From the NCBI RefSeq assembly GCF_902813185.1, contig NZ_LR778301.1, forward strand, positions 1,426,001 to 1,490,000: a DNA stretch of 64,000 bases, in the 5' to 3' direction. The translations under genes and the position numbers were made by a program. The notes under the pieces were generated by a model. It saw only the letters and a program-made list of their open reading frames with translations. It was not told the origin of the DNA and did not search any database. Position 1 is the stretch's first letter. The number at the start of each line of letters is the position of its first letter. This stretch comes from Denitratisoma oestradiolicum. Lineage in GTDB: Bacteria; Pseudomonadota; Gammaproteobacteria; Burkholderiales; Rhodocyclaceae. Below, piece after piece: positions 23,056-38,859 of the stretch.

Positions 23056-25641
23056 ATGAAAAAAATCAATGCCGGCTTTTGGAAGTCAGACTGGTTTCTT
23101 GGACTGGCAGTGAGTCTGGTGCTCTTGATTCTGGGGAATGGTGATTTGCTCCAGAGCCTGGAACGCAAGGCCTATGACATGGGGGTGCAGATGACCTCTC
23201 GTGTTCCCTCGGACAAGATCGCCGTGATTGCCATCGATAAGATCAGTATCGACAACATCGGCCGCTGGCCCTGGTCCCGTGAAATCATGGCCGACATGGT
23301 GGACCAACTGGCGGCCGCCAAGGCCAAGGTGGTCGCCACGACGATTTTTTATTCCGAGCCCCAGCGGGACCCGGGCCTGGTCTATATCGACAAGCTGATG
23401 GAAGCATGCGGAGTGGTCCGTGAGACGGCCACCGTTGCCGAGGGTGAGGCTCCTCCGTCTCCTGTTGCTGCGTCCACCTGTCCCCAGATTGCGCCGATGC
23501 TGCTGGAGGCGGAGCAGGTCTTGAATACAGATCGTCGTTTTGCCGGTTCCCTGGAGCGCGCGGGCAATGTGGCACTGCCCATGCTGTTCCGACTGGGGGA
23601 TCCCCTGGGCAAGCCGGATCGGGAACTGCCCGATTATGTGCGCAGTAATGGCGTCAAGGTGACCTCGTCTGGGGACTTTGCGCCGATCCCCACCGTGGAT
23701 CTGGATGTTTCCGTAATCCCGTCCCTGGGCAGCGTGGCTGCGGCCATTGGCCATCTCAATGTGACGCACGATGTGGATGGTGGCATTCGTGCCGAGCCTT
23801 TGGTGCTGGGGCATTTCAACGAGGCATTTCCCGCGTTGTCTTTGCTGGTGGCGGCCAAAAGCCTGAACCTGGGGCCCGCCGACATACAGGTGAGCGCGGG
23901 TGAGTTCGTTCGCCTGGGCCGCTTGAAGATCGCCACCGATCCGGATACCCGGATGGCGACCTTCTTCTACAAGGACAGGGAAGGGCATCCGGCCTTCCCT
24001 GTGGATTCCTTTTTCGATGTCAAGACCGGCAAGATTCCTTTCGACAAGTACCGGGACAAGATTGTCCTCATCGGCCCGACAGCGGCCGGAGTGGGCAATG
24101 CCTTCGTGACGCCGGTATCTCCGGCGATGCCTGCGGTGCTGATGCAGGCCCATGCCGTGTCCAGCATTCTTTCGGAGCATTTCTTCGTGGCGCCGAGCTG
24201 GGGGCTTCTGGTCGAGAAACTGGTGTTCCTGCTGGTGGCAATCTATCTGATCGCCCTGCTGCCACGGTTGCGAGCCGGAATGGCGGCGGGTATCACGGCC
24301 GCCATACTCGTCGCCCTGGTGGCGGTGCATTTCGTCCTGATCACCACCCAGTTGCTCTGGTTGCAGTTGATGGTGCCGGCGACCCTGCTGCTGGTGGGCC
24401 ATCTGTTGCTGACCACCAAGCGTTTCCTGGTCACCGAGCGGGGCAAGGAAAAGTCCGATCTGGAGTCGGCCGAGTCGAACCGAATGCTGGGCCTGGCCTT
24501 TCAGGGCCAGGGGCAGCTGGACATGGCCTTCGACAAGTTTCGCAAGTGCCCGCCGGACAACCAGTTGATGGAGAACCTCTACAATCTGGCCCTGGACTTC
24601 GAGCGCAAGCGGCAGTTCAACAAGGCCGAGGCGGTGTTCCGCTACATGTCTGATTACGATCCCAAGTTCCGCGATCTGGAGCAGCGCCTGGCCCGGGCCA
24701 AGCAGATGTCCGAGACGGTGATCCTGGGCGGTGGCGGCGGGCGCAGCAACGCCAGTACCATGATCCTGGATGGCGGGACGGTGGAAAAGCCGATGCTGGG
24801 CCGCTACCAGATCGAAAAGGAATTGGGCAAGGGCGCCATGGGTGTGGTCTATCTGGGACGGGATCCCAAGATCAACCGAGTCGTGGCCATCAAGACCATG
24901 GCCTTGTCCCAGGAGTTCGAGGAAGACGAACTGGTCGAAGTGAAGGAGCGCTTCTTCCGCGAGGCCGAGACTGCGGGCCGCCTCAATCATCCGAATATCG
25001 TCACCATGTACGATGCGGGCGAGGAGCACGATCTGGCCTATATCGCCATGGAGTTCCTCAAGGGCAAGGATCTGGTGCCCTATACCAAGGTAGCCAATCT
25101 GTTGCCCCTTCCCCAGGTGATGAGCATCGTGGCCCGGGTGGCGGAGGCGCTTTCCTATGCCCACGGGAATTCCGTGGTGCATCGGGACATCAAGCCCGCC
25201 AATGTCATGTACGAACCGGAAAGCGACAGCGTCAAGGTCACGGATTTCGGTATCGCCCGCATCACCGACTCGTCCAAGACCAAGACCGGCATGGTGTTGG
25301 GTACTCCAAGTTACATGTCGCCGGAGCAGTTGGGAGGGAAGAAGATCGATGGCCGTTCGGACCTGTTTTCCCTGGGGGTGACCCTGTATCAGCTTGCCAG
25401 CGGCAAGTTGCCTTTCGAGGGGGATTCCATGGCGCAACTGATGTTCAAGATTGCCAATGAGCCCCATCCGGATATTCGCACGGTGCGCCCCGACCTGCCC
25501 GAATGTCTGGTGGCGGTCATTGATCGCGCCCTGGTCAAGGATGCGGATCAGCGTTATCAGACCGGTGCGGAAATGGCCGCGGATCTCAAGTCCTGCATCG
25601 CCGCGACGCCCATTCCGACCGCCGGCGGCGGAAATGCATGA
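23056..25641 (+). CDS. CHASE2 transmembrane Ser/Thr protein kinase
   Basis: The 861-residue protein starts with a membrane helix (FLGLAVSLVLLILG), then a periplasmic CHASE2 sensor domain (about 35-380, with IAVIAIDKISIDNIGRWPWSR). Three membrane helices follow near 385-460, then a TPR-like segment (NLYNLALDFERKRQFNKAEAVF). The C-terminal Hanks-type kinase has GKGAMGVVYLG, VAIK with Lys about 613, HRDIKPAN with Asp about 711, DFG with Asp about 730, and GTPSYMSPEQL. All catalytic residues are intact. A juxtamembrane ASTMILDGG may be a phosphosite. It heads a run of eight signalling genes, directly overlapping a PP2C phosphatase gene. An external signal through CHASE2 should set kinase activity. 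Confidence 0.96.
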   Translation: MKKINAGFWKSDWFLGLAVSLVLLILGNGDLLQSLERKAYDMGVQMTSRVPSDKIAVIAIDKISIDNIGRWPWSREIMADMVDQLAAAKAKVVATTIFYSEPQRDPGLVYIDKLMEACGVVRETATVAEGEAPPSPVAASTCPQIAPMLLEAEQVLNTDRRFAGSLERAGNVALPMLFRLGDPLGKPDRELPDYVRSNGVKVTSSGDFAPIPTVDLDVSVIPSLGSVAAAIGHLNVTHDVDGGIRAEPLVLGHFNEAFPALSLLVAAKSLNLGPADIQVSAGEFVRLGRLKIATDPDTRMATFFYKDREGHPAFPVDSFFDVKTGKIPFDKYRDKIVLIGPTAAGVGNAFVTPVSPAMPAVLMQAHAVSSILSEHFFVAPSWGLLVEKLVFLLVAIYLIALLPRLRAGMAAGITAAILVALVAVHFVLITTQLLWLQLMVPATLLLVGHLLLTTKRFLVTERGKEKSDLESAESNRMLGLAFQGQGQLDMAFDKFRKCPPDNQLMENLYNLALDFERKRQFNKAEAVFRYMSDYDPKFRDLEQRLARAKQMSETVILGGGGGRSNASTMILDGGTVEKPMLGRYQIEKELGKGAMGVVYLGRDPKINRVVAIKTMALSQEFEEDELVEVKERFFREAETAGRLNHPNIVTMYDAGEEHDLAYIAMEFLKGKDLVPYTKVANLLPLPQVMSIVARVAEALSYAHGNSVVHRDIKPANVMYEPESDSVKVTDFGIARITDSSKTKTGMVLGTPSYMSPEQLGGKKIDGRSDLFSLGVTLYQLASGKLPFEGDSMAQLMFKIANEPHPDIRTVRPDLPECLVAVIDRALVKDADQRYQTGAEMAADLKSCIAATPIPTAGGGNA

Positions 25642-26476
25642 GGGGTCTGGCGTGGATTTGAGTTCCTATCTGGAAATCGCCGCCCGCTCCGATCCCGGGA
25701 TGGTGCGTTCCAATAACGAGGATTCCGTGAAGACCCATCCGGCCCTGGGACTGGTGGTGCTTGCTGACGGAATGGGTGGCTACAACGCTGGCGAGGTGGC
25801 CAGTGGGATGGCCACAACCTTGCTGGCGACCGAGCTGGACAGGATTTTCACCGCTAGATCGCCAGGAAGTGAAGGGGCGGAGGGAGTTCCCTGGGTTCAT
25901 CAGGTGTTGGCCGGGGAAATTGCCAGGGCCAATAACGCCATCCTCCATGCGGCGCAAAGCCAGCCCCAGTATTCAGGAATGGGGACGACCCTGGTCATGG
26001 CGCTGTTCCATGACAATAAGATGACTGTGGCCCATATTGGTGACTCTCGGCTCTATCGCTGTCGTGGCGAGGATTTTGATCAGGTCACCCGTGACCATTC
26101 ACTGTTGCAGGAGCAGATCGATAGCGGCATGATCACGGCCGAGGAAGCTCGGCATTCCCAGAACAAGAATCTGGTGACCCGTGCTTTGGGCATTGATCCA
26201 TCGGTTGAGCCGGAAATTCATGATTATGATGTTCAGCCGGGCGATATCTATCTGCTATGTTCCGATGGCCTCAACGACATGGTGGAGGATGAGGAGATTG
26301 CCATGACCCTGCAAATGCTCTCGGCCAACTTGGAGTTGTGTGCCACCCAGCTTGTCCAGATGGCTAATGACAATGGTGGCCGGGATAACGTGTCCGTGAT
26401 CGTGGTCAAGATCAAGCAGGCTTTTCCGGCTCCCCGGGGCTGGTTGAACAGGCTGATGGCCTGGTTCTGCAAATAA
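25634..26476 (+). CDS. PP2C-family Ser/Thr protein phosphatase
   Basis: The 280-residue enzyme has the PP2C metal-binding motifs in order: RSDPGMVRSNNEDS, LADGMGGYNAGE, GMGTTLVMALF, AHIGDSRLYRCRG, LCSDGLNDMV and NNGGRDNVSV-like NDNGGRDNVSV near the C terminus. It would remove phosphate from targets of the adjacent kinase. ATG 25634 overlaps the kinase stop by eight bases; a GTG at 25652 has a better-spaced AGGGGT and may be the true start. It is soluble apart from a hydrophobic C-terminal end. Overlap with the kinase gene signals coupled production. Confidence 0.95.
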   Translation: MHEGSGVDLSSYLEIAARSDPGMVRSNNEDSVKTHPALGLVVLADGMGGYNAGEVASGMATTLLATELDRIFTARSPGSEGAEGVPWVHQVLAGEIARANNAILHAAQSQPQYSGMGTTLVMALFHDNKMTVAHIGDSRLYRCRGEDFDQVTRDHSLLQEQIDSGMITAEEARHSQNKNLVTRALGIDPSVEPEIHDYDVQPGDIYLLCSDGLNDMVEDEEIAMTLQMLSANLELCATQLVQMANDNGGRDNVSVIVVKIKQAFPAPRGWLNRLMAWFCK

Positions 26477-26496
26477 TGAAGCGTTGAGGAAATAAC

Positions 26497-27264
26497 ATGG
26501 CGAAGCTTATTCTCAGCATGGACGGCTTGGTGCTCAAGGAAATACCCCTTTCCAAGGAGCGTACAACCATAGGCCGCAAACCCCATAACGATATCCAGAT
26601 CGACAATCTGGCCATATCGGGTGAACATGCAGTGATTGTCACTATCCTCAGCGATTCCTTCCTGGAGGACCTCGATAGTACCAATGGTACCTTCGTCAAT
26701 GGCCAGTCGGTGAAGAAGCACTTTCTCCAGAACGGCGATGTTATCGAATTGGGCAAATATCGACTCAAGTACATCAATGAGGTCGTGCAGCAGGCCGGCG
26801 GGGCCGACTTCGAAAAGACCATGGTTCTGCGCCCGGACATGATGCGCAAGACCGTCGAACAGATGCCCCACAAAGGCTTTGGTGATACTCAGGTAGGGGT
26901 CAAGGAAGCTGCCGAGGCAATGCTGCCCGAGCAGGCTCCCTCTCCGGCTCCTGCTTCTGTTCCCTCTCCCGCTGTCGCGCCCCCGACTGCGCCGGCCCTT
27001 CCATTGGGTTCCATTCAGGTCCTGACGGGTGGCAACGCGGGCAAGGAGCTGGAACTGACCAAGACGCTGACGACCCTTGGCAAGCCCGGTGTGCAGGTGG
27101 CCGTCATTGCACGTCGGCCCCATGGCTACTTCATTACTCATGTGGAGGGTGCGCAGTTCCCGATCGTCAATGGCAATACCCTGGATGCTCAGGCGCATCC
27201 GCTGGCCGATCATGACATCATCGAACTGGCTGGTGTGAAGATGGAGTTCTTCCTTAAGGCCTAG
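26497..27264 (+). CDS. FHA-domain phosphothreonine-binding protein
   Basis: The 255-residue protein has an N-terminal FHA domain (about 5-95) with TTIGRKPHNDIQIDN, ISGEHAVI and DLDSTNGTFVNG, the residues that bind phosphothreonine. A Pro/Ala/Ser-rich linker (about 150-175) joins a second FHA-like fold near residues 175-255 that has lost the key loop residues. The linker region also has FEKTMVLRPD, matching the TMIL motif in the kinase. It lies 20 bp after the phosphatase gene and should read phosphorylation set by the kinase. The two-fold arrangement suggests an adaptor. Confidence 0.93.
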   Translation: MAKLILSMDGLVLKEIPLSKERTTIGRKPHNDIQIDNLAISGEHAVIVTILSDSFLEDLDSTNGTFVNGQSVKKHFLQNGDVIELGKYRLKYINEVVQQAGGADFEKTMVLRPDMMRKTVEQMPHKGFGDTQVGVKEAAEAMLPEQAPSPAPASVPSPAVAPPTAPALPLGSIQVLTGGNAGKELELTKTLTTLGKPGVQVAVIARRPHGYFITHVEGAQFPIVNGNTLDAQAHPLADHDIIELAGVKMEFFLKA

Positions 27265-27297
27265 CCTTGTCGGGAGGGATTGAATCGTGGAGATCTT

Positions 27298-29523
27298 GTG
27301 AAGCAGCATTGGGTACGCTATGGACTGGGGTTGGCGGTCCTGCTGGTGCTGCTCGGCCACTCGGCCCGCTTGTACCAGATACCGTTGATCAGCCATCTGG
27401 ACGCCATCGCCTATGACGTGAAGCTGCGGCTGACCATGCCCCAGCGCATGGACGACCGGGTGGTGATTCTGGATATCGATGAGAAGTCCCTGGCTGAAGT
27501 GGGCCGCTGGCCCTGGGGGCGGGACAAACTGGCGGCACTGGTGGATAAGTTGTTTGATCAGTACCAGATAGCAGTGCTGGGGTTTGATGTGGTGTTCGCC
27601 GAACCCGATGATAGTTCCGGCCTCAAGACCCTGGAGTCCCTGGCCGGTCGTGAGCTCAAGGACAGCGCAGCGTTCCACGCGAGCTTGCGAGACTTGCGGC
27701 CGCAACTTGATCACGACGCCCGGTTTGCCAATTCACTACAAGGTCGGCCAGTGGTCCTTGGGTTCTATCTTTCATCCCTGGCTGAGGAGTCGGCCAATGG
27801 TGCCTTGCCTCCGCCGGTGTTGCCGGAGGGGACTTTCCAGGGGCGCAATATTGCTTTTACCCACTGGACTGGGCATGGAGGCAATCTGGAGGAGTTCCAG
27901 AAGACGGCGGGCAGTGGCGGACATTTCAATCCTCTTGTGGATTTCGATGGGGTTTCGCGCCGGGTTCCGATGCTCGCTGAATACCGGGGTGCTTACTACG
28001 AGGCCCTGTCGCTGGCGATGGTGCGTCTGGCCCTGGGACGTCCCAAGGTGGTTCCCGGCTTCCCTGCCGGAACCAATGCCAAGACCTATGGCGCGATGGA
28101 GTGGATCGACCTGCCCACCAGCAAGGGAACCTTGCGGATTCCGGTGGACGAGAATGCCGCCAGCCTGGTGCCCTACCGGGGATATCGGGGGAGTTACGAT
28201 TACATTTCGATGGCCGATGTGCTGGCGGGGCGGGTGGCGCCGGAACGACTGAAGGGCCGCATCGCGATCGTCGGCACCACGGCGCCGGGCTTGATGGATC
28301 TGCGGGTCACTCCGGTGGACAACGCCTATCCGGGGGTTGAAATTCACGCCAACCTGATTGCGGGGATGCTGGACGGCAGCATCAAATACAAGCCGGCCTA
28401 TGTGCTGGGTGCGGACGTGGTGTTGCTGCTGTTGTCCGGTGGCGTCATGGTTTTTCTGCTGCCCCTGCTTTCGCCTTTTCGTGCCACCATCGTGGCCTCC
28501 ATCGTTCTGCTGTTCCTGCTGTCGGTCAATTTTGCCTTCTGGCAGGCGGGAAATCTGGTCCTGCCCCTATCCAATACCGTGGTTCTGGTGATAGCGCTCT
28601 ATGGCATGAACATGTCTTGGGGTTATTTCGTCGAGTCACGCAGCAAGCGTCAGTTGACCGGCCTGTTCGGCCAGTATGTGCCGCCCGAGCTGGTGGAGGA
28701 AATGAGCCGGGATCCGGAAAACTACAGCATGGCGGGGCGCAAGGCCGAATTGACGGTCTTGTTCTCGGACGTGCGCGGCTTCACCACAATTTCCGAGGGG
28801 CTGGAACCCGATCAACTGGCAGCCTTGATGAACGAGTATCTAGGGGCCATGACTCAGGTGATCCGGGGCCATCGGGGCACACTGGACAAGTACATCGGCG
28901 ATGCGATCATGGCCTTTTGGGGCGCTCCGGTGGAGGATTTTCAGCATGCCAGGAATGCGGTTCTGACGGCCCTGCATATGCAGGAGGCTCTCCACGAGTT
29001 GAACAAGGTCCTGGTGACCAAGGGTTGGCCAGAGCTCAAAATTGGCGTGGGTGTGAATACGGGGACAATGACGGTGGGCGATATGGGTTCGCCGGTGCGG
29101 CAGTCCTATACCGTCATGGGGGATGCGGTGAATCTGGGCTCCCGCCTGGAAGGCATCACCAAGCAATATGGTGTTGGCATCATCGTGGGTGAGTCGACGC
29201 GGGAACTCCTCAAGAAAGAGGTCGTGTTTCGGGAACTGGATCGGGTCCGGGTCAAGGGCAAGGACGAACCGGTGGGTATTTACGAACCCCTGGGCCTGGA
29301 GGGCCAGGTGGATAGAGCACTGCTCGACGAGCTAAAACTGTGGAATCAGGCGCTTCGCGCCTATCGAAGCCAGGACTGGGATCAGGCCGAGCTTACCCTG
29401 ATGAATCTGTCGCGCATCAGTCAGCGCTATCTGTACGAACTCTATATGCAGCGCATCGCCCACTACCGGAAGGAACCACCGGATGCCGATTGGGATGGCG
29501 TCTGGAAGTTCGAGACCAAGTAG
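27298..29523 (+). CDS. CHASE2 class III adenylate cyclase
   Basis: The 741-residue protein has an N-terminal membrane helix (YGLGLAVLLVLLG), a periplasmic CHASE2 domain (VVILDIDEKSLAEVGRWPWGR), three membrane helices near 370-445, and a C-terminal class III cyclase domain. FSDVRGFTT and DKYIGDAIMAFWG supply the two metal Asp residues and the purine-reading Lys; YTVMGDAVNLGSRLEG has Thr where class IIIa enzymes have Asp. Lys/Thr is the class IIIb pattern, associated with ATP use and bicarbonate stimulation. GTG 27298 is chosen for its GGAG at -5; TTG 27280 is an alternative. Together with the next two genes it forms a cAMP make/break/read set. Confidence 0.93.
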   Translation: MKQHWVRYGLGLAVLLVLLGHSARLYQIPLISHLDAIAYDVKLRLTMPQRMDDRVVILDIDEKSLAEVGRWPWGRDKLAALVDKLFDQYQIAVLGFDVVFAEPDDSSGLKTLESLAGRELKDSAAFHASLRDLRPQLDHDARFANSLQGRPVVLGFYLSSLAEESANGALPPPVLPEGTFQGRNIAFTHWTGHGGNLEEFQKTAGSGGHFNPLVDFDGVSRRVPMLAEYRGAYYEALSLAMVRLALGRPKVVPGFPAGTNAKTYGAMEWIDLPTSKGTLRIPVDENAASLVPYRGYRGSYDYISMADVLAGRVAPERLKGRIAIVGTTAPGLMDLRVTPVDNAYPGVEIHANLIAGMLDGSIKYKPAYVLGADVVLLLLSGGVMVFLLPLLSPFRATIVASIVLLFLLSVNFAFWQAGNLVLPLSNTVVLVIALYGMNMSWGYFVESRSKRQLTGLFGQYVPPELVEEMSRDPENYSMAGRKAELTVLFSDVRGFTTISEGLEPDQLAALMNEYLGAMTQVIRGHRGTLDKYIGDAIMAFWGAPVEDFQHARNAVLTALHMQEALHELNKVLVTKGWPELKIGVGVNTGTMTVGDMGSPVRQSYTVMGDAVNLGSRLEGITKQYGVGIIVGESTRELLKKEVVFRELDRVRVKGKDEPVGIYEPLGLEGQVDRALLDELKLWNQALRAYRSQDWDQAELTLMNLSRISQRYLYELYMQRIAHYRKEPPDADWDGVWKFETK

Positions 29524-29531
29524 AGGCCGCT

Positions 29532-30299
29532 ATGAGAATACGCATTCTGGGCTGTAGCGGTGGAATCGGCGGCCGTCATCTGCGCACGACATCCATGTTG
29601 CTGGATCACGACATTCTTATTGATGCCGGTACGGGCGTGGGGGATCTGTCCATTGCAGAACTGGTCCAGATCGACCATGTGTTCATCACCCATACCCATC
29701 TGGATCATATTGCCTGTCTGCCCTTCATTGTGGATACGGTAGGGGACATGAGGAACCGCCCCCTGACGGTGCATGGAACCGAAGAGGTTTTGGAAATTCT
29801 CAAGTCCCACGTTTTCAACTGGGCCATCTGGCCAGATTTCAGCGAAATCCCGACCCTGGAGAAACCGTTCCTGCGCTTCGAGAAAATACAGGTGGATACA
29901 CCGGTGCAGTTCGGGGAACGTCGCATCACTGCGATCAAGGTGAATCATACGGTCCCTGCTGTGGGCTATTTGCTGGACTCTGGCCGGGCAAGTCTGGTGT
30001 TTTCCGGCGATACCACGATTTGCCCGGAACTGTGGCAACACGTGAATGCCGTTCAGAACCTGCGCTACCTGATCATCGAATGCGCCTTTTCCAACCGGGA
30101 GCATGCCCTGGCCACGGTTTCCAAGCACCTTTGCCCCAGCATGCTGGCCGAGGAACTGACGCAATTGCAGCGGGAGGTGGAGCTGTTCATCACCCATCTG
30201 AAACCCGGACAGATCGAACTGACAATGCTTGAAATCGAGGACAGCATTGGCGAGTTCCGGCCCCGAATGTTGCAGAACAATCAGGTGTTCGAATTATGA
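29532..30299 (+). CDS. Class II cyclic nucleotide phosphodiesterase (metallo-beta-lactamase fold)
   Basis: The 255-residue enzyme has the HxHxDH metal motif THTHLDHIACLPF, a SGDTTIC motif and a late histidine (HLKPG), with CSGGIGGRH at the N terminus. These place it with the PDE class II/CpdP-like cyclic nucleotide phosphodiesterases, which hydrolyse 3',5'-cAMP. Its position between a cyclase and a cyclic-nucleotide-binding protein strongly supports that substrate. ATG 29532 is 8 bp after the cyclase stop. Its stop overlaps the next start as ATGA. Confidence 0.88.
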   Translation: MRIRILGCSGGIGGRHLRTTSMLLDHDILIDAGTGVGDLSIAELVQIDHVFITHTHLDHIACLPFIVDTVGDMRNRPLTVHGTEEVLEILKSHVFNWAIWPDFSEIPTLEKPFLRFEKIQVDTPVQFGERRITAIKVNHTVPAVGYLLDSGRASLVFSGDTTICPELWQHVNAVQNLRYLIIECAFSNREHALATVSKHLCPSMLAEELTQLQREVELFITHLKPGQIELTMLEIEDSIGEFRPRMLQNNQVFEL

Positions 30300-31369
30300 A
30301 CACCATCGAAGTGCTGTCCACGCTGCAATTGATGGAAAGGCTCCAGCCCATGGCGGCCCTACCGAGGCATCATCTGGCCCAGTTGGCGGTGCACTGCACT
30401 CGTCAGACATTAGGTCGGGCCTCAGCCCCGATCCTGGCTCAGGAGAACAGCAGGAAGCTGGTCTATCTGGTGCGGGGCGAGGCAAAGCTGGAATTCAGCG
30501 ATGGGAGTTTTCGAGTTATGGTTGGCGCTACCAGCGAGACCATCCATCCCCTGGGGCGCAACGGGGAGCAACTGCTCGCATTCAAGCCGATCACCGAGAT
30601 TGAAATCCTGCAACTAGACGAAGAACTGCTGGACATCATGTTGACCTGGGATCAATTGAGCGACCCTGGGAAAAAAGGGATACCAATGGGTACTCGCCCG
30701 GGGGCTACTGACAGGTTTTCTGTTCAGCAACTTACCCAGGGGGTGTTAGCAAAGTTGCCGGTAGCCCATATCGGGGAGTTGTTGCAGCGTTTTGAGAGGA
30801 TTGAAGTCAAGAAAGGCCAGATCATCGTGAAGCAGGATGATCCGGGTGATTACTACTATTTGATCGATAGCGGCCGCTGCACGGTGGCCCGTTCGGTGCC
30901 GGGGGGCGTCATACAACTTGCCGATCTGAATTCTGGAGATGCTTTTGGCGAGGAAGCGCTGGTAGCCGAGGTGCCTCGTAATGCCACCGTGACCATGAAG
31001 ACGGATGGTGTGCTGCTGCGCCTCAGTAAAACCGATTTTGTCGCCTTGTTGCGGGAGCCCCTGCTGCAATGGATCGACTGGGATCATGCCCGGCTCAGGG
31101 TCACCGAGGGAGCCTGCTGGGTGGATGTTCGCTGTCCCGCCGAGTTCCAGTATGACGGTTTGCCGGGGGCCAGTAATGTTCCCTTGAACGAGTTGCGTCG
31201 CATGCTGCCGTCCCTGGAGGTATCCAAAGAGTATCTTGTCTATTGTCAGACGGGACGGCGCAGCTCCGCTGCAGCTTTCCTGATGTCCCAACGGGGTTTG
31301 CGCGCCATGGTGCTGACCGGAGGCCTCAAGGGCTGTCATCAATCACTTCCTGGCAGGGTTTTCCAATGA
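30296..31369 (+). CDS. Cyclic-nucleotide-binding domain fused to a rhodanese domain
   Basis: The 357-residue protein has a degenerate N-terminal cNMP-like fold (about 10-120), a canonical cNMP-binding domain (about 155-270) with FGEEALVAEVPRNATV as the phosphate-binding cassette, and a C-terminal rhodanese domain (about 270-350). The rhodanese loop is CQTGRRSS, with the active-site Cys present, so sulfur transfer is possible. There is no DNA-binding domain, so this is not a CRP regulator. It would be the cAMP effector of this gene set. ATGA overlaps link it to both neighbours. Confidence 0.93.
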   Translation: MNTIEVLSTLQLMERLQPMAALPRHHLAQLAVHCTRQTLGRASAPILAQENSRKLVYLVRGEAKLEFSDGSFRVMVGATSETIHPLGRNGEQLLAFKPITEIEILQLDEELLDIMLTWDQLSDPGKKGIPMGTRPGATDRFSVQQLTQGVLAKLPVAHIGELLQRFERIEVKKGQIIVKQDDPGDYYYLIDSGRCTVARSVPGGVIQLADLNSGDAFGEEALVAEVPRNATVTMKTDGVLLRLSKTDFVALLREPLLQWIDWDHARLRVTEGACWVDVRCPAEFQYDGLPGASNVPLNELRRMLPSLEVSKEYLVYCQTGRRSSAAAFLMSQRGLRAMVLTGGLKGCHQSLPGRVFQ

Positions 31370-33741
31370 GCGCGGTGCTCGGCAATGCCCAAGACGCGAG
31401 TCTGACCGACGTCAGCAGTCGTCTGGCCTTTTTCAAGAACCTCCAGACGGTCACTAACAGGATTCATGCCACGTCCAATGTGGATGAAATCATGCTGGAG
31501 TTGTCCCAGGACATCTGCAGCCTGTTCAACGCTGATCGTCTGACCCTTTATGCGGTGGGCGAGGACAAGGCTTCGATTGTTTCCAAGCTCAAGACCGGGC
31601 TGAATTCTTTCAAGGATCTGAAGCTTCCAATCACCGATCAGAGCGTTGCCGGCTATGTGGCCTTGTCGAAACGGGTGGTGAATGTCACAGATGTCTACGA
31701 CGAGGCCGAGTTGAGGTCCATCCACCCCAGCCTGCGTTTCCTGCAGGAAGTGGATAAGCGAACCGGCTACCGAACCAAGCAGATGCTGGTGGCTCCCATC
31801 GTGGACCAGTCCAATGGTGAGCTGTTGGGCGTGGTCCAGATCATCAACAGCAAGGCGGGGGCACCCTTCGCGCAAGTGGCCGAGGAAGGGGTACGGGGTC
31901 TCTGCGAAACGCTTGCCATCGCCTTTACTCAGCGCAACAAACCCGCCACACTGGTCCGTTCAAAATACGATTTCCTGGTGGCGGATGCGGTGGTGACCGC
32001 CGATGAACTGGACTTGGCCAAGCGAACGGCTCGCAAGGACAGTCGTAGCATCGAGGACATCCTGGTTGAACAGTTCCAGGTCAAGCTTCCGGTTCTGGGT
32101 TTGGCACTGTCGAAATTCTTCAATATTCCTTACGAGCCCCACAATCCGGAGCGCATGAAGCCGGTGGATTTGCTGAAGAATCTCAAGCGGGAATACCTTG
32201 AGCAGAACCAGTGGGCGCCGGTTGACGACACGGCTGAAGGCATACTGGTCGTTTGCCTGGATCCGGAGCAGGTGAAGGGCTCCCGTGTTGTCAATAACGT
32301 TTTCCCCCGCTCCAAAATTGCCTACCGGGTCACCACCAACCGGGAGTTCAAGGAAACGCTGGATTCCCTGTTCGGTGCCAAGGGGAGTGCGGAAATGGAC
32401 TCCACTTCGGTGGGGGACATGCTGTCCGGCATGGACGAGGGAGAGGATACTGACTCTACGGCTGAGGATGTCTCCGCCGCAGCGGACAACGAGCTGGTGA
32501 AACTCGTCAACAAGATCATCATCGATGCCTACCAGCAAGGTGTCTCGGATATTCATGTGGAGCCCTACCCAGGCAAGGAAAAGACCCTGATCCGCTTCCG
32601 CAAGGATGGCTCCTTGCAGAAATACGTGGAAATTCCCGCGACCTATCGCAATGCCATCGTGGCGCGGATCAAGATCATGTGCGACCTGGATATTGCCGAG
32701 CGGCGCCGGCCCCAGGATGGCAAGATCAAGTTCAAGAAATTCGGTCCCCTGGACATCGAACTGCGGGTGGCCACCATACCTTCCGCCGGCGGTGTCGAGG
32801 ATGTGGTGATGCGGATTCTCGCCGCCGGTGAGCCCATACCCCTGGACAAGCTGGGGGTGCTGCCGACCAACCTGGAACGGCTCAAGAGTGCCGTCAGCAA
32901 ACCCTACGGATTGTTTTTCGTCTGTGGTCCGACGGGTTCCGGCAAGACCACCACACTCCATTCGGTACTGAGTTATCTCAATACCCCGGACACCAAGATA
33001 TGGACTGCCGAGGACCCGGTGGAAATTACCCAGAAGGGCTTGCGCCAGGTCCAGGTCAACAAGAAGGCCGGCCTCGACTTCGCGGTCGTCATGAAGGCCT
33101 TCCTGCGGGCAGATCCAGACATCATCATGGTGGGGGAAATGCGCGATGCCGAAACCACGGGTATCGGTATCGAGGCTTCCCTGACGGGTCACCTGGTCTT
33201 CGCCACCCTGCACACCAACAGCGCGCCGGAATCCATTATCCGTCTGCTGGATATGGGCATGGACCCCTTCAACTTCTCCGATGCCCTGTTGGGCATCCTG
33301 GCCCAGCGTCTGGCCAAGCGCCTCTGCGGCAAGTGCAAGGAAGCCTATGTGCCCGATGATGAGGAAATGCGGCTCTTCCTGGCGGAGTACTCCCAGGAAT
33401 TGCTCAATACGGAAACCTACAAGCGGGACCAGGGGGCTGCTCAGGTGGTTCTGCGTCAGCGCTTGCTGAAGGATTATGGCAAGGATGGAAATTTTTCCAT
33501 GTTCCATCCCAAAGGTTGTCCAGAGTGCAACAACACGGGTTACAAGGGCCGGGTGGGCCTGCACGAACTCATGTTGGGCTCCGATGCCGTCAAAAAATTG
33601 ATTCAGGAACACGCCCGGGTAGCCGAGCTTGTGGCACAGGCCCTAGAGGACGGTATGTTGACCCTGAAGATGGACGGCATGGAGAAGGTATTGCAAGGGA
33701 TCACCGATATGAAGCAGGTGCGGGCTGTCTGTATCAAGTAA
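31366..33741 (+). CDS. GspE/PilB-type secretion ATPase with N-terminal GAF domain
   Basis: The 791-residue protein begins with a GAF domain (about 15-180: FNADRLTLYAVGEDK, MLVAPIVDQSNGELLGVVQIINSK). A T2SSE_N-like domain follows (about 200-330), then the GspE/PilB motor. Walker A is GPTGSGKTTTLHS with Lys about 527; DPDIIMVGEMRDAET is Walker B. TGHLVFATLHTNSA is the His box. The zinc motif is CGKCKEAY ... CPECNNTGY. The T2SSE_N part lacks the RLGxx motif known for c-di-GMP binding in MshE. A GAF sensor at the front of a pilus ATPase is unusual. ATG 31366 overlaps the upstream stop. Confidence 0.94.
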   Translation: MSAVLGNAQDASLTDVSSRLAFFKNLQTVTNRIHATSNVDEIMLELSQDICSLFNADRLTLYAVGEDKASIVSKLKTGLNSFKDLKLPITDQSVAGYVALSKRVVNVTDVYDEAELRSIHPSLRFLQEVDKRTGYRTKQMLVAPIVDQSNGELLGVVQIINSKAGAPFAQVAEEGVRGLCETLAIAFTQRNKPATLVRSKYDFLVADAVVTADELDLAKRTARKDSRSIEDILVEQFQVKLPVLGLALSKFFNIPYEPHNPERMKPVDLLKNLKREYLEQNQWAPVDDTAEGILVVCLDPEQVKGSRVVNNVFPRSKIAYRVTTNREFKETLDSLFGAKGSAEMDSTSVGDMLSGMDEGEDTDSTAEDVSAAADNELVKLVNKIIIDAYQQGVSDIHVEPYPGKEKTLIRFRKDGSLQKYVEIPATYRNAIVARIKIMCDLDIAERRRPQDGKIKFKKFGPLDIELRVATIPSAGGVEDVVMRILAAGEPIPLDKLGVLPTNLERLKSAVSKPYGLFFVCGPTGSGKTTTLHSVLSYLNTPDTKIWTAEDPVEITQKGLRQVQVNKKAGLDFAVVMKAFLRADPDIIMVGEMRDAETTGIGIEASLTGHLVFATLHTNSAPESIIRLLDMGMDPFNFSDALLGILAQRLAKRLCGKCKEAYVPDDEEMRLFLAEYSQELLNTETYKRDQGAAQVVLRQRLLKDYGKDGNFSMFHPKGCPECNNTGYKGRVGLHELMLGSDAVKKLIQEHARVAELVAQALEDGMLTLKMDGMEKVLQGITDMKQVRAVCIK

Positions 33742-33748
33742 ATCCATC

Positions 33749-35374
33749 GTGCATACCCCGGATGACCTGATCCACCGCCTGGAGCAACTGAACGAGGTAG
33801 GGGCGGCCCTCTCGAAGGAGCGGGATATCAACCGTCTGCTGGAGCATATCCTGCTGGCGGCGAAGACCATCACCCATGCCGATGGGGGGACCCTTTACCG
33901 GGTGACCGAGGATGGTCAGCACCTGCGCTTTGAAATCATGCGTACCGACTCCCTGGGGATCGCTCTTGGCGGTACTACCGGCAACGGGATATCCCTGCCC
34001 GACTTGCCTCTGGTGGACGAGTACGGCAAGCCCAATAATGCGATGGTAGCGGCCTACTCAGCCATCAACGAGAAGACCGTCAATATCGCCGACGCCTACA
34101 CGGAAGCCGGCTTCGACTTCACCGGCACCCGCAAGTTCGACGACAAGACCGGCTACCGTTCCTGCTCCTTCCTCACTGTGCCGATGAAGAATCACGAGAA
34201 TGAGATCATCGGCGTGCTGCAACTGATCAACGCCATTGATCCTGTTACTGGCGCGGTAGGCACATTCTCCGCAGCGGATCAGCGCCTTGCCGAATCCCTG
34301 GCCTCCCAGGCCGCCATTGCTCTGACCAACCGGCAACTGATCAGCCAGTTGGAAAACCTGTTCGAGTCCTTCATTGATCTGATCAATCTGGCGATTGACG
34401 AGAAGTCACCCTATACCGGTGGCCATTGCCAGCGGGTGCCGGCCCTGACCATGATGCTGGCGGAGGCCGTGAATGCTACCGAGGAAGGTCCCCTGGCGGA
34501 CTTTCACATGTCCGAACGGGACCGCTACGAACTGAAGATCGCCGGGCTGCTCCACGATTGCGGCAAGGTGACCACGCCAGTCCATGTGGTGGATAAGGCC
34601 ACAAAACTGGAAACCCTGTTCGATCGTATCCATCTGGTGGACACCCGCTTCGAGGTGTTGAAACGGGATGCCGAGACCCGGATGTTGAGACAGTTGTTGG
34701 TCATAACCGATCCGGCCACCCAGGCGGAGGCTCAGGCAGCCCTGGCTCGGGAATGGGCACTTCTCGACGAGGAACGGGCTTTCCTGCACCGCGTCAATGT
34801 GGGCGGCGAAGCCATGAAACCCGAGGATCAGCAGCGGGTCCGTGATATCGGCACCGGTCACCACTGGCGGAACGCCGATGGGGAGGAGGTGCCATTCTTG
34901 TCGGAGGACGAAATTGAGAACCTCACCATCCGGGCAGGCACCCTGACCCAGACCGAACGGGAGGTGATCAATCATCACATCGTGGCCACCATCAGAATGC
35001 TGGAGCAATTGCCCTGGCCCAAGCATCTGCGCAATGTGCCCGAATATGCCGGCGGCCACCATGAGCGTATGGACGGCAAGGGCTACCCCAAGGGCCTGAC
35101 CCGGGAACAGATGTCGATCCAGGCCCGCATCATGGGCATCGCCGATATCTTCGAGGCGCTGACGGCAAGAGATCGCCCCTACAAGCCCGGCATGAAGCTG
35201 TCCCAGGCGATTTCCATCCTGGGCAACTTTGCCCGGAATGGCCACATTGATCCGGATCTGTTCGAGGTCTTCGTTCGGCAGGGCGTGTTCAAACAATATG
35301 CTGAGCGTTATATGGACCCGAGTCAGATCGATGCGGTCGATCTGGATAAAGTATTTAGCAGCGTATCGAGCTGA
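33749..35374 (+). CDS. GAF plus HD-GYP c-di-GMP phosphodiesterase
   Basis: The 541-residue protein has a GAF domain (about 10-190; GGTLYRVTEDG, FLTVPMKNHENEIIGVLQLINA) followed by an HD-GYP domain. The HD pair is LLHDCGKVTTP; HHERMDGKGYPKGL carries GYP. An insertion of about 130 residues lies between the HD and GYP parts. It should hydrolyse c-di-GMP under control of a small ligand. The GTG at 33749 follows the ATPase stop by seven bases with a weak ribosome site. It is the last gene of the signalling run; pilA follows with its own promoter. Confidence 0.93.
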   Translation: MHTPDDLIHRLEQLNEVGAALSKERDINRLLEHILLAAKTITHADGGTLYRVTEDGQHLRFEIMRTDSLGIALGGTTGNGISLPDLPLVDEYGKPNNAMVAAYSAINEKTVNIADAYTEAGFDFTGTRKFDDKTGYRSCSFLTVPMKNHENEIIGVLQLINAIDPVTGAVGTFSAADQRLAESLASQAAIALTNRQLISQLENLFESFIDLINLAIDEKSPYTGGHCQRVPALTMMLAEAVNATEEGPLADFHMSERDRYELKIAGLLHDCGKVTTPVHVVDKATKLETLFDRIHLVDTRFEVLKRDAETRMLRQLLVITDPATQAEAQAALAREWALLDEERAFLHRVNVGGEAMKPEDQQRVRDIGTGHHWRNADGEEVPFLSEDEIENLTIRAGTLTQTEREVINHHIVATIRMLEQLPWPKHLRNVPEYAGGHHERMDGKGYPKGLTREQMSIQARIMGIADIFEALTARDRPYKPGMKLSQAISILGNFARNGHIDPDLFEVFVRQGVFKQYAERYMDPSQIDAVDLDKVFSSVSS

Positions 35375-35456
35375 CAATTTTTGTCACATTTGTTGCTTCC
35401 ATGGATAGTCTGGTGAAGGTCAAGTCTGAATACCGCTTATGGCAAGGGGGCATATG

Positions 35457-35971
<515 letters not shown>

Positions 35972-35987
35972 TCGCTGGTTCTTATAG

Positions 35988-36017
35988 AAAGCCCCAGCCT
36001 AGCTGGGGCTTTTTTTT
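35988..36017 (+). terminator. Intrinsic terminator after pilA
   Basis: AAAGCCCCAGC, a three-base loop (CTA) and GCTGGGGC followed by eight T residues. It is a textbook rho-independent terminator, 16 bases after the pilA stop, and isolates high-level pilA transcription from the next gene. Confidence 0.93.
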
Positions 36018-36029
36018 GTGGTGTATAGC

Positions 36030-37991
36030 ATGCCGTGCATATTGCGATATTGGGGCCTGATCGCCATTCTGTTTCTGACCTGTTTGGGCTATTGGGGAGG
36101 CTTGAACGGTTCTTTTTATTTTGATGACTACGGGCAGATCGTTTGGAACGCCGGTCTGACCATGCGGGAGCTCAGTTGGGAAGAGCTTCTGGCAGCAGCA
36201 ACTTCCTCCAATGCAGGTCCTCTGGGTCGCCCTGTTGCCATGGGCAGCTTTGCCTTGGAGCAGTTCTTTCTCGGAGTGACACCTTACCATTTCAAACTAG
36301 TTAACTTGCTCATCCATTTGATGAACGTTGTCCTGCTGGCTTTTCTAACTACAGAGCTGGTGCGGGCCACCCATGGTGAATCAAAGGAAAGTACGCAGCG
36401 GAAGTTTCGATATTCAGAAATCGTTCTGATTTTGACGGTCACGGCCTGGTGGGCCTTCCATCCTCTGGGAGTAACGGGGGTGCTGTACATTGTGCAGCGT
36501 ATGACCAGCCTTTCCATGCTGTTCTCTCTGATTGCCCTATGGGGCTATCTTTGGGGACGCAACAAGTCGCTGGAGTCGGGGAATATAAGTTACCTGCTCT
36601 TTGCTGTAACGGTTTTGGTTTTTGGGGGGCTTTTCTCGATACTGACGAAAGAGAACGGTGCCTTGACTTTCGGATTTGCCTGGTTGATCGAGATATTTGT
36701 GCTGCGCTTCAGGAGCGCGAACGTCAGACAGGAAAGGTTTCTGCGTGCTATCGGTATATTGGCGCCCATTCTGGTATTTTTGGTGGGCTTGGTTTTCTGG
36801 TGGACCCACCCGGACTGGTTGAGTAGCGCCTATGCGGACCGTAGTTTTACTTTAGAGCAGCGTCTTCTGACCGAAGCACGGGTGGGCTGGTTTTACTTGC
36901 GCCAGATTGTGCTTCCCAGCAGTGCTGCCTTGGGTCTTTACCATGATGGGTTTCCCGTTTCTTCAAGCCTATGGCAACCGTGGACGACGGTTCTTGCCAT
37001 CCTGGGGCACGCGTTGCTTTGTACACTGGGTTGGCGACTGCGTAAGAGTCATCCGCTGGTGGCTTTCGGGATTGCGTGGTTCTATATGGGGCATGCGGTA
37101 GAGTCGACAATCATTCCGCTTGAGCTGGTTTTTGAACATCGCAACTATCTACCCCAATATGGGGTTCTGCTTGCCCTTGTTTCCCTATTGACCTGGAGTG
37201 GATCGTTTTTTTTGAAAACACGGATAATGCTCCTGGGAGGTCTTATCTTTCTTTCTCTAGCCACTACCGCCCTGCGAACTCAGGCTATGGGAGAGCGAAT
37301 CGCTTATCCGGTATATGAGGCCGTTCGGCATCCAGAGTCGTCCCGTGCCAATTTTGATGCGGGGTTGATCGTTGCCGGAGCAATCGGCCAAGACAAGAAA
37401 TTGGCCATTGAGTACTACGAGCAGTCAAGGCAGTTTTTCGATCGTTCCCGCAGTGCTGATCCACATACCCTGGCTCCATTTGTTGGCATGATGAAACTCT
37501 CGTCCGCGAGTGGAGTGCCTTACCCGGCTGATTATCTGGATGAGTTCAAGCAGCGTCTGCGTGAGGGGCTTCCCCCAAGGGCAACCAGCTTCCTTCCAAG
37601 AATCCTGGGGGAACAACTATCGGCATCTAAGCCGATCTTCTCGATTGAGGAAGGAGCCCAAATTTACCAGGCAGCGATAGAAAATCCATTATTGAACGGT
37701 TATGCCCGGGCCTGCTGGGAGGCAGGTTATGGTTTGTTCCTATTCAATATTGTGGGCGACCATGCTAGTGGTTTGATCGCTATGCGTGCCGCTGTAGCCG
37801 ATGCTCCAAGTCATGCTGATTTGTGGGTATTTTTGGCGGCGATGTTGATATCGTCAGGCGATGCTATGGCTGCCGAGAATGCTATCAATGAGGCTACAAG
37901 ACATGACGAGAAAGGCTATTCACGTGATGATCTGATTAAATTGCGACAAGGCCTCGAATTGCTGAAGAGTGGTAAAAATGTCGTGCGATAA
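36030..37991 (+). CDS. TMTC-like GT-C membrane glycosyltransferase with C-terminal TPR-like region
   Basis: The 653-residue protein has about ten membrane helices in residues 1-410. After the first helix comes FYFDDYGQIVWN, the acidic-pair motif typical of GT-C transferases of the TMTC/O-mannosyl type. WWAFHPLGVTGVLYIVQRM resembles the second conserved loop. The last 240 residues are soluble, alpha-helical and TPR-like (IEYYEQSRQFFDRSRS). Placement directly after pilA suggests pilin or surface-protein glycosylation with a polyprenyl-phosphate sugar donor. ATG 36030 is preferred to a GTG at 36018, which abuts the terminator. Base composition looks more AT-rich than flanking genes. Confidence 0.75.
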   Translation: MPCILRYWGLIAILFLTCLGYWGGLNGSFYFDDYGQIVWNAGLTMRELSWEELLAAATSSNAGPLGRPVAMGSFALEQFFLGVTPYHFKLVNLLIHLMNVVLLAFLTTELVRATHGESKESTQRKFRYSEIVLILTVTAWWAFHPLGVTGVLYIVQRMTSLSMLFSLIALWGYLWGRNKSLESGNISYLLFAVTVLVFGGLFSILTKENGALTFGFAWLIEIFVLRFRSANVRQERFLRAIGILAPILVFLVGLVFWWTHPDWLSSAYADRSFTLEQRLLTEARVGWFYLRQIVLPSSAALGLYHDGFPVSSSLWQPWTTVLAILGHALLCTLGWRLRKSHPLVAFGIAWFYMGHAVESTIIPLELVFEHRNYLPQYGVLLALVSLLTWSGSFFLKTRIMLLGGLIFLSLATTALRTQAMGERIAYPVYEAVRHPESSRANFDAGLIVAGAIGQDKKLAIEYYEQSRQFFDRSRSADPHTLAPFVGMMKLSSASGVPYPADYLDEFKQRLREGLPPRATSFLPRILGEQLSASKPIFSIEEGAQIYQAAIENPLLNGYARACWEAGYGLFLFNIVGDHASGLIAMRAAVADAPSHADLWVFLAAMLISSGDAMAAENAINEATRHDEKGYSRDDLIKLRQGLELLKSGKNVVR

Positions 37992-38859
37992 AACTGTTTC
38001 TATTGTTATTCCAGCCAAGAATGAAGGTCGTGCCCTTGGAGAGTTGCTCTCCCGATTGCGGGACTTGAAAATCATTGCCGAGGTCATCGTCGTGGACGAT
38101 GGTTCCAGCGACGATACGGCGCAGCTTGCTGAGGCCGCTGGCGCTACCGTGATCCGTCATCCCTATTCCATGGGGAACGGCGCCGCCATCAAGTCGGGTG
38201 CCCGCCGTGCCAGTGGTGAAATTATCGTCTTCATGGATGGCGATGGGCAGCACCAACCCGAGGACATTCCGAGGTTGTTGGCCAAAATGGAAGAGGGCTA
38301 TGAAATGGTGGTGGGTGCCCGTACCACCGTCAGTTCCCAGGCGGGCCTGCACCGGGCGGCCGCCAATGGTTTTTACAACCGATTCGCCAGTTGGATGGTG
38401 GGGCAGCCGATCCTGGATTTGACCTCCGGATTTCGCGCCGTCCGGGCCAGCAAGTTCCGCCGTTTCCTGTTCTTGCTGCCCAACGGCTTCTCCTATCCCA
38501 CCACCATCACCATGTCATTCTTTCGAACCGGTCTGCCGGTGGCCTATCTGCCCATCGATGTGAAGAAGCGGATCGGTCGCAGCCATGTTCGGCTGCTGCG
38601 GGATGGGGTGCGCTTCCTGTTGATCATTTTCAAGATTGGTACCCTGTTTTCCCCCATGAAGTTGTTCCTGCCGGTAAGTTTGAGTTTCTTTGGAACCGGG
38701 GTTGCCTATTACATTTATACCTATCTGACTCAGCATCGCTTCACCAACATGAGCGCCTTGCTGCTGATCACCTCGGTGCTGGTGTTCCTGATCGGCCTGG
38801 TTTCGGAACAGATCGCGGCCCTGAATTTCAAGGGCACCGACGATGGGGATGAACTGTAA
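37978..38859 (+). CDS. GT2-family glycosyltransferase (polyprenyl-phosphate type)
   Basis: The 293-residue protein has a GT-A catalytic domain with SIVIPAKNEG, VVDDGSSDDT, and the DXD-like MDGDGQHQPEDI. Two membrane helices lie near the C terminus (SFFGTGVAYYIYTYL and LLLITSVLVFLIGLV). The layout matches DPM1/ArnC/GtrB-like enzymes that load a sugar on undecaprenyl phosphate. It overlaps the upstream GT-C gene by 14 bp, so it may provide that enzyme's lipid-linked donor. ATG 37978 is taken as start; a GTG at 37969 adds three residues. Confidence 0.9.
   Translation: MSCDKTVSIVIPAKNEGRALGELLSRLRDLKIIAEVIVVDDGSSDDTAQLAEAAGATVIRHPYSMGNGAAIKSGARRASGEIIVFMDGDGQHQPEDIPRLLAKMEEGYEMVVGARTTVSSQAGLHRAAANGFYNRFASWMVGQPILDLTSGFRAVRASKFRRFLFLLPNGFSYPTTITMSFFRTGLPVAYLPIDVKKRIGRSHVRLLRDGVRFLLIIFKIGTLFSPMKLFLPVSLSFFGTGVAYYIYTYLTQHRFTNMSALLLITSVLVFLIGLVSEQIAALNFKGTDDGDEL

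Follow-up and report, generated by a model that had tools for sequence, protein, structure and literature searches.

A conserved betaproteobacterial signalling gene run with a proposed type IVa pilus motor in Denitratisoma oestradiolicum

The eight-gene run and its conservation

The window analysed here is a stretch of 64,000 nucleotides of the genome of Denitratisoma oestradiolicum (order Burkholderiales; contig NZ_LR778301.1, positions 1,426,001 to 1,490,000). It carries a run of eight genes, encoding a CHASE2 kinase, a PP2C phosphatase, an FHA adaptor, a CHASE2 adenylate cyclase, a cyclic nucleotide phosphodiesterase (PDE), a fusion of a cyclic nucleotide-binding domain (CNB) with a rhodanese, a GAF-containing ATPase of the PilB/GspE type (GAF-ATPase) and a GAF-HD-GYP protein (Table 1). 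All eight lie on the + strand (positions 23056-35374) and every junction is either an overlap or a gap of at most 20 bp; from the kinase gene to the HD-GYP gene these are an overlap of 8 bp, gaps of 20, 15 and 8 bp, two overlaps of 4 bp and a gap of 7 bp. The domains of all eight proteins exceed the Pfam gathering scores, and the coordinates, strand and Pfam scores agree with the preliminary description of eight co-directional, tightly packed genes. The spacing suggests that they are co-transcribed as one operon, and the view that the run is a conserved betaproteobacterial signalling gene set, forming one circuit, is well supported by its conservation.

Table 1. Genes, domains and sites of the run and its surroundings (positions within the window)
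Feature	Position	Strand	Basis
CHASE2 membrane Ser/Thr kinase	23056-25641	+	CHASE2 and Pkinase Pfam
PP2C phosphatase	25634-26476	+	Pfam; NF033484 (Stp1-type), 255.9 bits vs cut-off 230
FHA adaptor	26497-27264	+	FHA Pfam
Conserved FHA linker FEKTMVLRP	~26809-26835	+	Orthologue alignment
CHASE2 class III adenylate cyclase	27280-29523	+	Pfam; closest solved chains
Class II-like cyclic nucleotide PDE, beta-lactamase fold	29532-30299	+	PDEase_II Pfam
CNB and rhodanese fusion	30296-31369	+	Pfam; PKG/PKA-like solved chains
GAF-MshEN-T2SSE ATPase, proposed type IVa pilus extension motor	31366-33741	+	Pfam; genome distribution
Motor GAF domain, apparently cyclic-nucleotide type	31480-31923	+	Solved-chain matches; residue conservation
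MshEN-like region of motor, without cyclic di-GMP motif	31963-32388	+	Motif check in orthologues
GAF-HD-GYP protein, probable cyclic di-GMP phosphodiesterase	33749-35374	+	Pfam; catalytic motifs
Sigma-54-like site, one mismatch	35382-35397	+	Consensus match
Sigma-54-like site, one mismatch, 46 bp 5' of pilA start	35457-35472	+	Consensus match; kept in related loci
pilA type IV pilin	35519-35971	+	Pilin and N_methyl Pfam
Terminator-like hairpin 3' of pilA	35986-36014	+	Consensus match only; 13 found in the region vs 11.2 expected

The N-terminal part of the GAF-ATPase was searched against GTDB species contigs, which gave 553 relatives; the 80 best-ranking loci among these were taken, and genome searches added 43 stretches from the same taxonomic order and 8 from other classes. 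The best 80 loci are the closest relatives and their counts therefore lean to complete sets. Gene order was counted where the sequence extended 9 kb or more upstream and 2 kb or more downstream of the ATPase gene, i.e. in 93 loci of the Burkholderiales (90 after removal of three loci, each a duplicate of one genome). The kinase and cyclase were scored by their own domains alone, since cross-matches between CHASE2 domains otherwise mimic six order violations. This analysis revealed that the genes present share the order and strand of the window in 93/93 loci (90/90 without duplicates), with no best match of a cluster gene on the opposite strand. The full set of eight was found in 48 of the 93 loci (45/90 without duplicates), all but the CNB-rhodanese gene in 12 more and the ATPase gene alone in one, i.e. 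the order first noticed in the window recurs in other genomes. Retention over the 93 loci was 66 for the kinase, 87 for PP2C, 87 for FHA, 68 for the cyclase, 88 for the PDE, 53 for CNB-rhodanese and 85 for HD-GYP. In the order-wide part of the sample (40 loci, 26 families), the set without CNB-rhodanese was complete in 18 loci from 16 families and the full eight were present in 6/40. Where 1.5 kb or more of upstream sequence was available (119 loci), the PDE gene was found in 114, and it stays where only PDE and motor remain (L196 and L226). The CysB and PpiD genes upstream of the run were not conserved neighbours in the related loci.

The kinase and cyclase tend to be absent together: both were at the locus in 62 of the 93 loci, the kinase only in 4, the cyclase only in 6 and neither in 21. 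The PP2C and FHA genes, which lie between them, were retained in 18 of these 21 loci, and one deletion therefore does not account for the joint departure. On a quick ATPase tree, 7.8 of 11 independent pairs changed the same way for kinase and cyclase and 0.1 the opposite way (median p 0.008); CNB likewise tracks the cyclase (6.7 same, 0.0 opposite, of 12 pairs; median p 0.016). A loss of kinase and cyclase from the genome was considered and rejected: in family f22, full-length CHASE2-kinase orthologues occur elsewhere in the genome in G057, G187, G148 and G223, and cyclase orthologues in G057 and G159, so that "left the locus" is the right wording. The relocated kinase orthologue of G187 (C1:1856395-1858998) was reported with one in-frame TAG.

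Outside the order, a distant GAF-ATPase was found in 27 of 398 genomes of a phylum sample which share only the phylum with D. oestradiolicum. Among 8 of these 27 that were examined, a GAF-HD-GYP gene lies beside the motor gene, in convergent orientation, in 5 (53-59% identity), and 3 have a cyclase match, which is a full CHASE2 cyclase in two and a lone cyclase domain in the third. Since motor, HD-GYP and cyclase are associated also in other classes, their link is older than the order. In loci L211, L213, L214, L215 and L217 the GAF-ATPase gene faces the convergent GAF-HD-GYP gene, with a CHASE2 cyclase gene between them in two.

The GAF-ATPase, the type IVa pilus and pilA

The GAF-ATPase falls below the cut-offs of the NCBIfam models for PilB (TIGR02538; 488.2 bits, cut-off 675.65), GspE (TIGR02533; 441 bits, cut-off 630.25) and TfpB (NF053534; 394.6 bits, cut-off 850); among the best 120 matches listed, its closest named relative, from Denitratisoma sp. 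DHT3, is 88% identical. Its gene sits in the signalling run, outside any pilB-pilC-pilD neighbourhood. In a sample of 200 genomes of the order, at least 90 carry a GAF-ATPase among the matches listed, where weaker fragments could be missed (87 nearly full length and three cut by contig ends, in G157, G179 and G192), and these represent at least 28 of 51 families. PilM, a marker of the type IVa pilus (T4aP), was over its cut-off in 88/90 genomes with the GAF-ATPase versus 68/110 others (p 6e-11).

Canonical PilB was over its cut-off in 109 of the 200 genomes, and 53 of the 156 genomes with PilM have none. The GAF-ATPase is present in 50 of these 53 versus 38 of the 103 with PilB (p 3.7e-13). 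The contrast persists with a PilB cut-off of 600 bits (48/51 vs 40/105), and also when the sample is limited to genomes of at least 90% completeness and no more than 5% contamination (45/47 vs 32/95). The PilB-less T4aP genomes span 20 families, in 18 of which the GAF-ATPase is present, and in the window's own family 4 genomes have the GAF-ATPase but no PilB and 2 have PilB but no GAF-ATPase. The genome of the window has PilM and two PilT-family ATPases, and its seven PilB/GspE-type ATPases all score below the PilB cut-off, while one passes the cut-off for TfpB and another that for GspE. Its pilC-pilD genes share neighbours with those of a relative, G146, but the pilB of G146 is absent there: 277 bp separate pilC from the preceding gene, and PilB of G146 searched against this stretch gave nothing convincing (best E 0.77, elsewhere in the stretch). 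On this distribution, the most likely role of the GAF-ATPase is to drive T4aP extension in place of PilB, and it probably replaces PilB in the window's genome as well.

Several results pull in the opposite direction: (i) TfpB is over its cut-off in 37 of the 53 PilB-less T4aP genomes, that of the window included, and is the main rival motor; (ii) TfpB is itself somewhat commoner where PilB is missing (37/53 vs 53/103, p 0.04), a count which, like those for PilB, PilM and the secretion marker T2SSL, is uncorrected for the species tree; (iii) three PilB-less genomes with PilM have no GAF-ATPase (G083, G194 and G196); and (iv) the evidence of an empty pilB site comes from a single genome. In an alternative reading, T4aP extension is driven by TfpB or by another PilB-like ATPase, with the GAF-ATPase in an accessory or regulatory role, acting on that motor or on a minor pilus. 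In its favour are the frequency of TfpB in PilB-less genomes and its presence in that of the window; five more PilB/GspE-type ATPases exist in the window's genome beyond GspE and the GAF-ATPase, and in Acinetobacter baylyi PilB and TfpB divide the work (PMC8213720). However, the GAF-ATPase occurs without a TfpB over the cut-off in 14 of the 53 (in G188, one of these, a TfpB truncated by the contig end scores just too low), as opposed to one, G194, with TfpB alone, and PilB absence is linked far more strongly to the GAF-ATPase than to TfpB. This alternative is judged unlikely, albeit the best of those considered.

Three further observations concern the pilus ATPases. Genome G083 is 98% complete and has PilM over the cut-off, with neither PilB, GAF-ATPase nor TfpB over the cut-off. 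The window's genome encodes, on the - strand (L174:4868-7093; C1 near 2,249,000), a PilB-like ATPase in which a response-regulator receiver domain is joined to MshEN and T2SSE, i.e. with a built-in signalling input. In G021 (L271:3426-5810), a further PilB-like ATPase (~795 aa), which differs in its N-terminal part, is encoded a few kb upstream of likely pilM-pilQ genes.

The pilA gene, which the preliminary description had placed next to the run, does start 144 bp after the HD-GYP gene, and 25 of 64 related loci have a matching pilin no more than 3 kb from the HD-GYP gene. Two sigma-54-like sites with one mismatch lie in these 144 bp. The whole window holds 4 such sites versus 2.8 expected, so that position and conservation, not number, constitute the evidence: for all 25 of the pilins, a site that agrees at 11 or 12 of 12 positions lies within 250 bp, as opposed to 7-9 of them in single simple shuffles, and 65 starts of cluster genes resemble their shuffles in this respect. 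Membership of pilA in the same unit as the run was rejected on account of these conserved sites of its own, and pilA is probably a separate unit with a predicted sigma-54-type promoter. Downstream of pilA are a gene for a large protein without a Pfam match (36018-37991) and a glycosyltransferase-like gene (37969-38859), perhaps involved in pilin modification; the order PilA-TPR-GT recurs in L100, L102, L104, L120 and L132, with its counterpart in the window at 35519-38859.

Cyclic-nucleotide, cyclic di-GMP and phosphorylation arms

The GAF domain of the motor matched 23 solved chains (E<=1), 19 of which are cyclic-nucleotide GAF proteins; the best match was to the tandem GAF domains of CyaB2 (1.3e-26 over both copies), followed by PDE10 and others. 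Over 124 orthologues, D130, N161 and F168 are invariant, and T133, T137 and Q158 are kept in 122, 120 and 123, respectively; work on PDE2 and CyaB2 assigns roles with the ligand to the corresponding positions. D130, T133, T137 and Q158 are conserved also in 30 orthologues without a cyclase match in the examined stretch. The GAF domain of the HD-GYP protein has PDE5 as its best solved match (2.1e-20), and 16 of its 21 matches are cyclic-nucleotide GAF proteins. The motor GAF thus appears, from its sequence, to be a sensor of the cyclic-nucleotide-binding type, and because both GAF domains are closest to this class, cyclic AMP (cAMP) may act on the motor directly.

A link to cyclic di-GMP (c-di-GMP) through the MshEN region was considered and rejected: a loose RLG...G-type pattern for the c-di-GMP motif was present in 0/119 orthologues, and a PDB sequence search with this region alone found nothing. 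As judged from these comparisons, cAMP, rather than c-di-GMP, is most likely the signal able to reach the motor directly.

The other proteins of the cyclic-nucleotide arm agree with their annotation. The closest solved chains of the cyclase are adenylate cyclases (best 1.1e-35). Its orthologues have a lysine in 85 of 87 complete frames and a YTVMG-type threonine motif in 79 of 87, both of which we take to be marks of this adenylate cyclase subclass. For the PDE, PDEase_II scores 52.9 vs 23.7 bits, and the best solved match is yeast PDE1 (4.7e-7, residues 47-104), with RNase Z-like proteins ranking below; the PDE1-type segment is present in 111/113 complete frames. The equivalog model NF041851 gives 44.5 bits (cut-off 400), and RNase Z models give 84.2 bits, above that score yet far below their own cut-off. 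The closest solved chains of the CNB part of the rhodanese fusion are PKG and PKA regulatory domains. The CHASE2 domains of the kinase and the cyclase, for which the preliminary description had suggested a common periplasmic cue, are only 24% identical.

In the HD-GYP protein, the HD motif is found in 97/97 and HHExxDGxGYP in 96/97 complete orthologue frames. It is the sole c-di-GMP enzyme of the run, which holds neither a writer nor an intact MshEN reader; of the earlier picture of a writer, eraser and reader for each signal, the c-di-GMP arm thus retains its eraser alone.

In the phosphorylation arm, the linker SETVILGG precedes the kinase domain, and of the 74 orthologues in which a glycine loop could be recognised, 69 carry the threonine-bearing motif (14 of 88 kinase matches had no such loop and were dropped, many being contig-cut or cross-matches). 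The linker motif of the FHA protein, FEKTMVLRP, is present in 98/109 orthologues. FHA domains favour phosphothreonine (pT) in a pTxxL or pTxx-hydrophobic context. Both linkers fit this preference and are therefore proposed as phospho-sites; judging by these motifs, their threonines are likely sites that are read by FHA.

The case for direct cAMP control has weaknesses of its own. The NKFDE motif of the motor GAF is incomplete (N and F in 124/124), its lysine and aspartate being replaced inside the taxonomic order and kept in 8/8 relatives outside it. By fold alone (VIA-align), the non-nucleotide GAF 3trc ranks first and other GAFs rank equal to or above cyclic-nucleotide GAFs, so that the class assignment rests on sequence; the structure model of the ATPase is poor in the core (mean pLDDT, the predicted local distance difference test, 68). 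As for MshEN, the window's genome encodes six other ATPases that were compared, 5 of which lack the loose motif and one of which (L171) carries both copies, so its absence is common. The gene set is, moreover, dispersed in some genomes. A loose, co-regulated signalling island without direct cAMP control of the motor, in which the GAF domain would be structural or bind another ligand, would accommodate the replaced NKFDE residues, the fold shared with other kinds of GAF and the cyclase missing from 25/93 loci. Against it stand the sequence class of the GAF, the retention of its four positions without a local cyclase match and the near-constant presence of the PDE (114/119 loci). In addition, all 18 checked genomes without a local cyclase retain class III cyclases elsewhere, so these 18 are no test of a requirement for cAMP. 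Such an island seems improbable.

The remaining alternative, a type II secretion (T2SS) ATPase under the same control, can draw on the likeness of the ATPase cores (GspE 441 and PilB 488 bits, both under their cut-offs) but is very improbable, as T2SSL is over its cut-off in 36/90 genomes with the GAF-ATPase vs 31/110 others (not significant, p 0.098), 54/90 have none over it, and in the window's genome a GspE that passes its cut-off lies in a T2SS-like cluster elsewhere. T2SS was accordingly rejected as the partner machine, and of the outputs first suggested, pilus or secretion, the pilus is favoured by the PilM link and PilB absence, and secretion drops out.

Proposed circuit and comparison with known systems

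The reading towards which we lean, with modest confidence, is that of a conserved betaproteobacterial signalling operon with a T4aP extension motor as its output, cAMP-responsive GAF domains, a parallel phospho-threonine arm and a separate pilA. In this proposal, the CHASE2 cyclase would make cAMP on a periplasmic cue and the PDE encoded near the motor would remove it; cAMP would bind the GAF domains of the motor and the HD-GYP protein, as well as CNB-rhodanese where present, so that pilus extension and local c-di-GMP would be set together. The CHASE2 kinase, PP2C and FHA would form the parallel phospho-threonine arm, and pilA would be transcribed separately from its sigma-54-type promoter. 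A more far-reaching version is put forward tentatively: a distinct class of T4aP extension motor would have displaced PilB in much of the betaproteobacteria, and cAMP would gate this motor directly, at a PDE/CyaB-type GAF, with cAMP writer, eraser and readers and a Ser/Thr phosphorylation arm in one ancient operon. To our knowledge, no pilus motor has been proposed before to sense cAMP itself.

PilB and MshE, whose MshEN binds c-di-GMP, have the same ATPase core and the same logic of N-terminal nucleotide sensing, and the GAF-ATPase, by its distribution, serves the same type of pilus; in contrast to them, it adds a cyclic-nucleotide-type GAF, lacks the MshEN motif and scores below the PilB cut-off. 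The kinase, PP2C and FHA trio of the type VI secretion system (PpkA-PppA-Fha) controls an envelope machine by threonine phosphorylation; the same trio is found here with another machine, a CHASE2 sensor and a coupled cAMP arm. In the Chp-CyaB-Vfr system of Pseudomonas aeruginosa, a class III cyclase controls pili via cAMP, and CyaB (3r5g) is among the closest solved chains of the cyclase. There, cAMP acts on transcription via Vfr (PMC11656802, in its accessible text), whereas here the proposed reader is the motor itself. In the accessible text of the same 2024 review of PilB control, the inputs named for pilus motors are, among others, the binding of c-di-GMP to MshEN, PilZ/FimX and small inhibitors; cAMP enters at the level of transcription, through Vfr, and the word GAF is absent. 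TfpB of A. baylyi is a second, phylogenetically distinct T4P extension motor encoded outside the pilBCD operon, as is proposed for the GAF-ATPase; unlike the latter, it is not described as a member of a signalling operon in the accessible part of that work (PMC8213720). The GAF-ATPase scores far below the TfpB cut-off, and the window's genome has a separate TfpB. A literature search, with subscription papers and preprints outside its scope, found no paper on this gene cluster; PMC5192318 deals, in its accessible part, with a different CHASE2 histidine-kinase operon.

If the proposal is true, cAMP would have a direct route to the pilus machine, through a motor that carries a GAF of the cyclic-nucleotide type and lacks the c-di-GMP motif. 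If the 53 of 156 PilM genomes of the order sample are truly without canonical PilB, to infer a lack of pili from a lack of pilB would be misleading in a third of these genomes.

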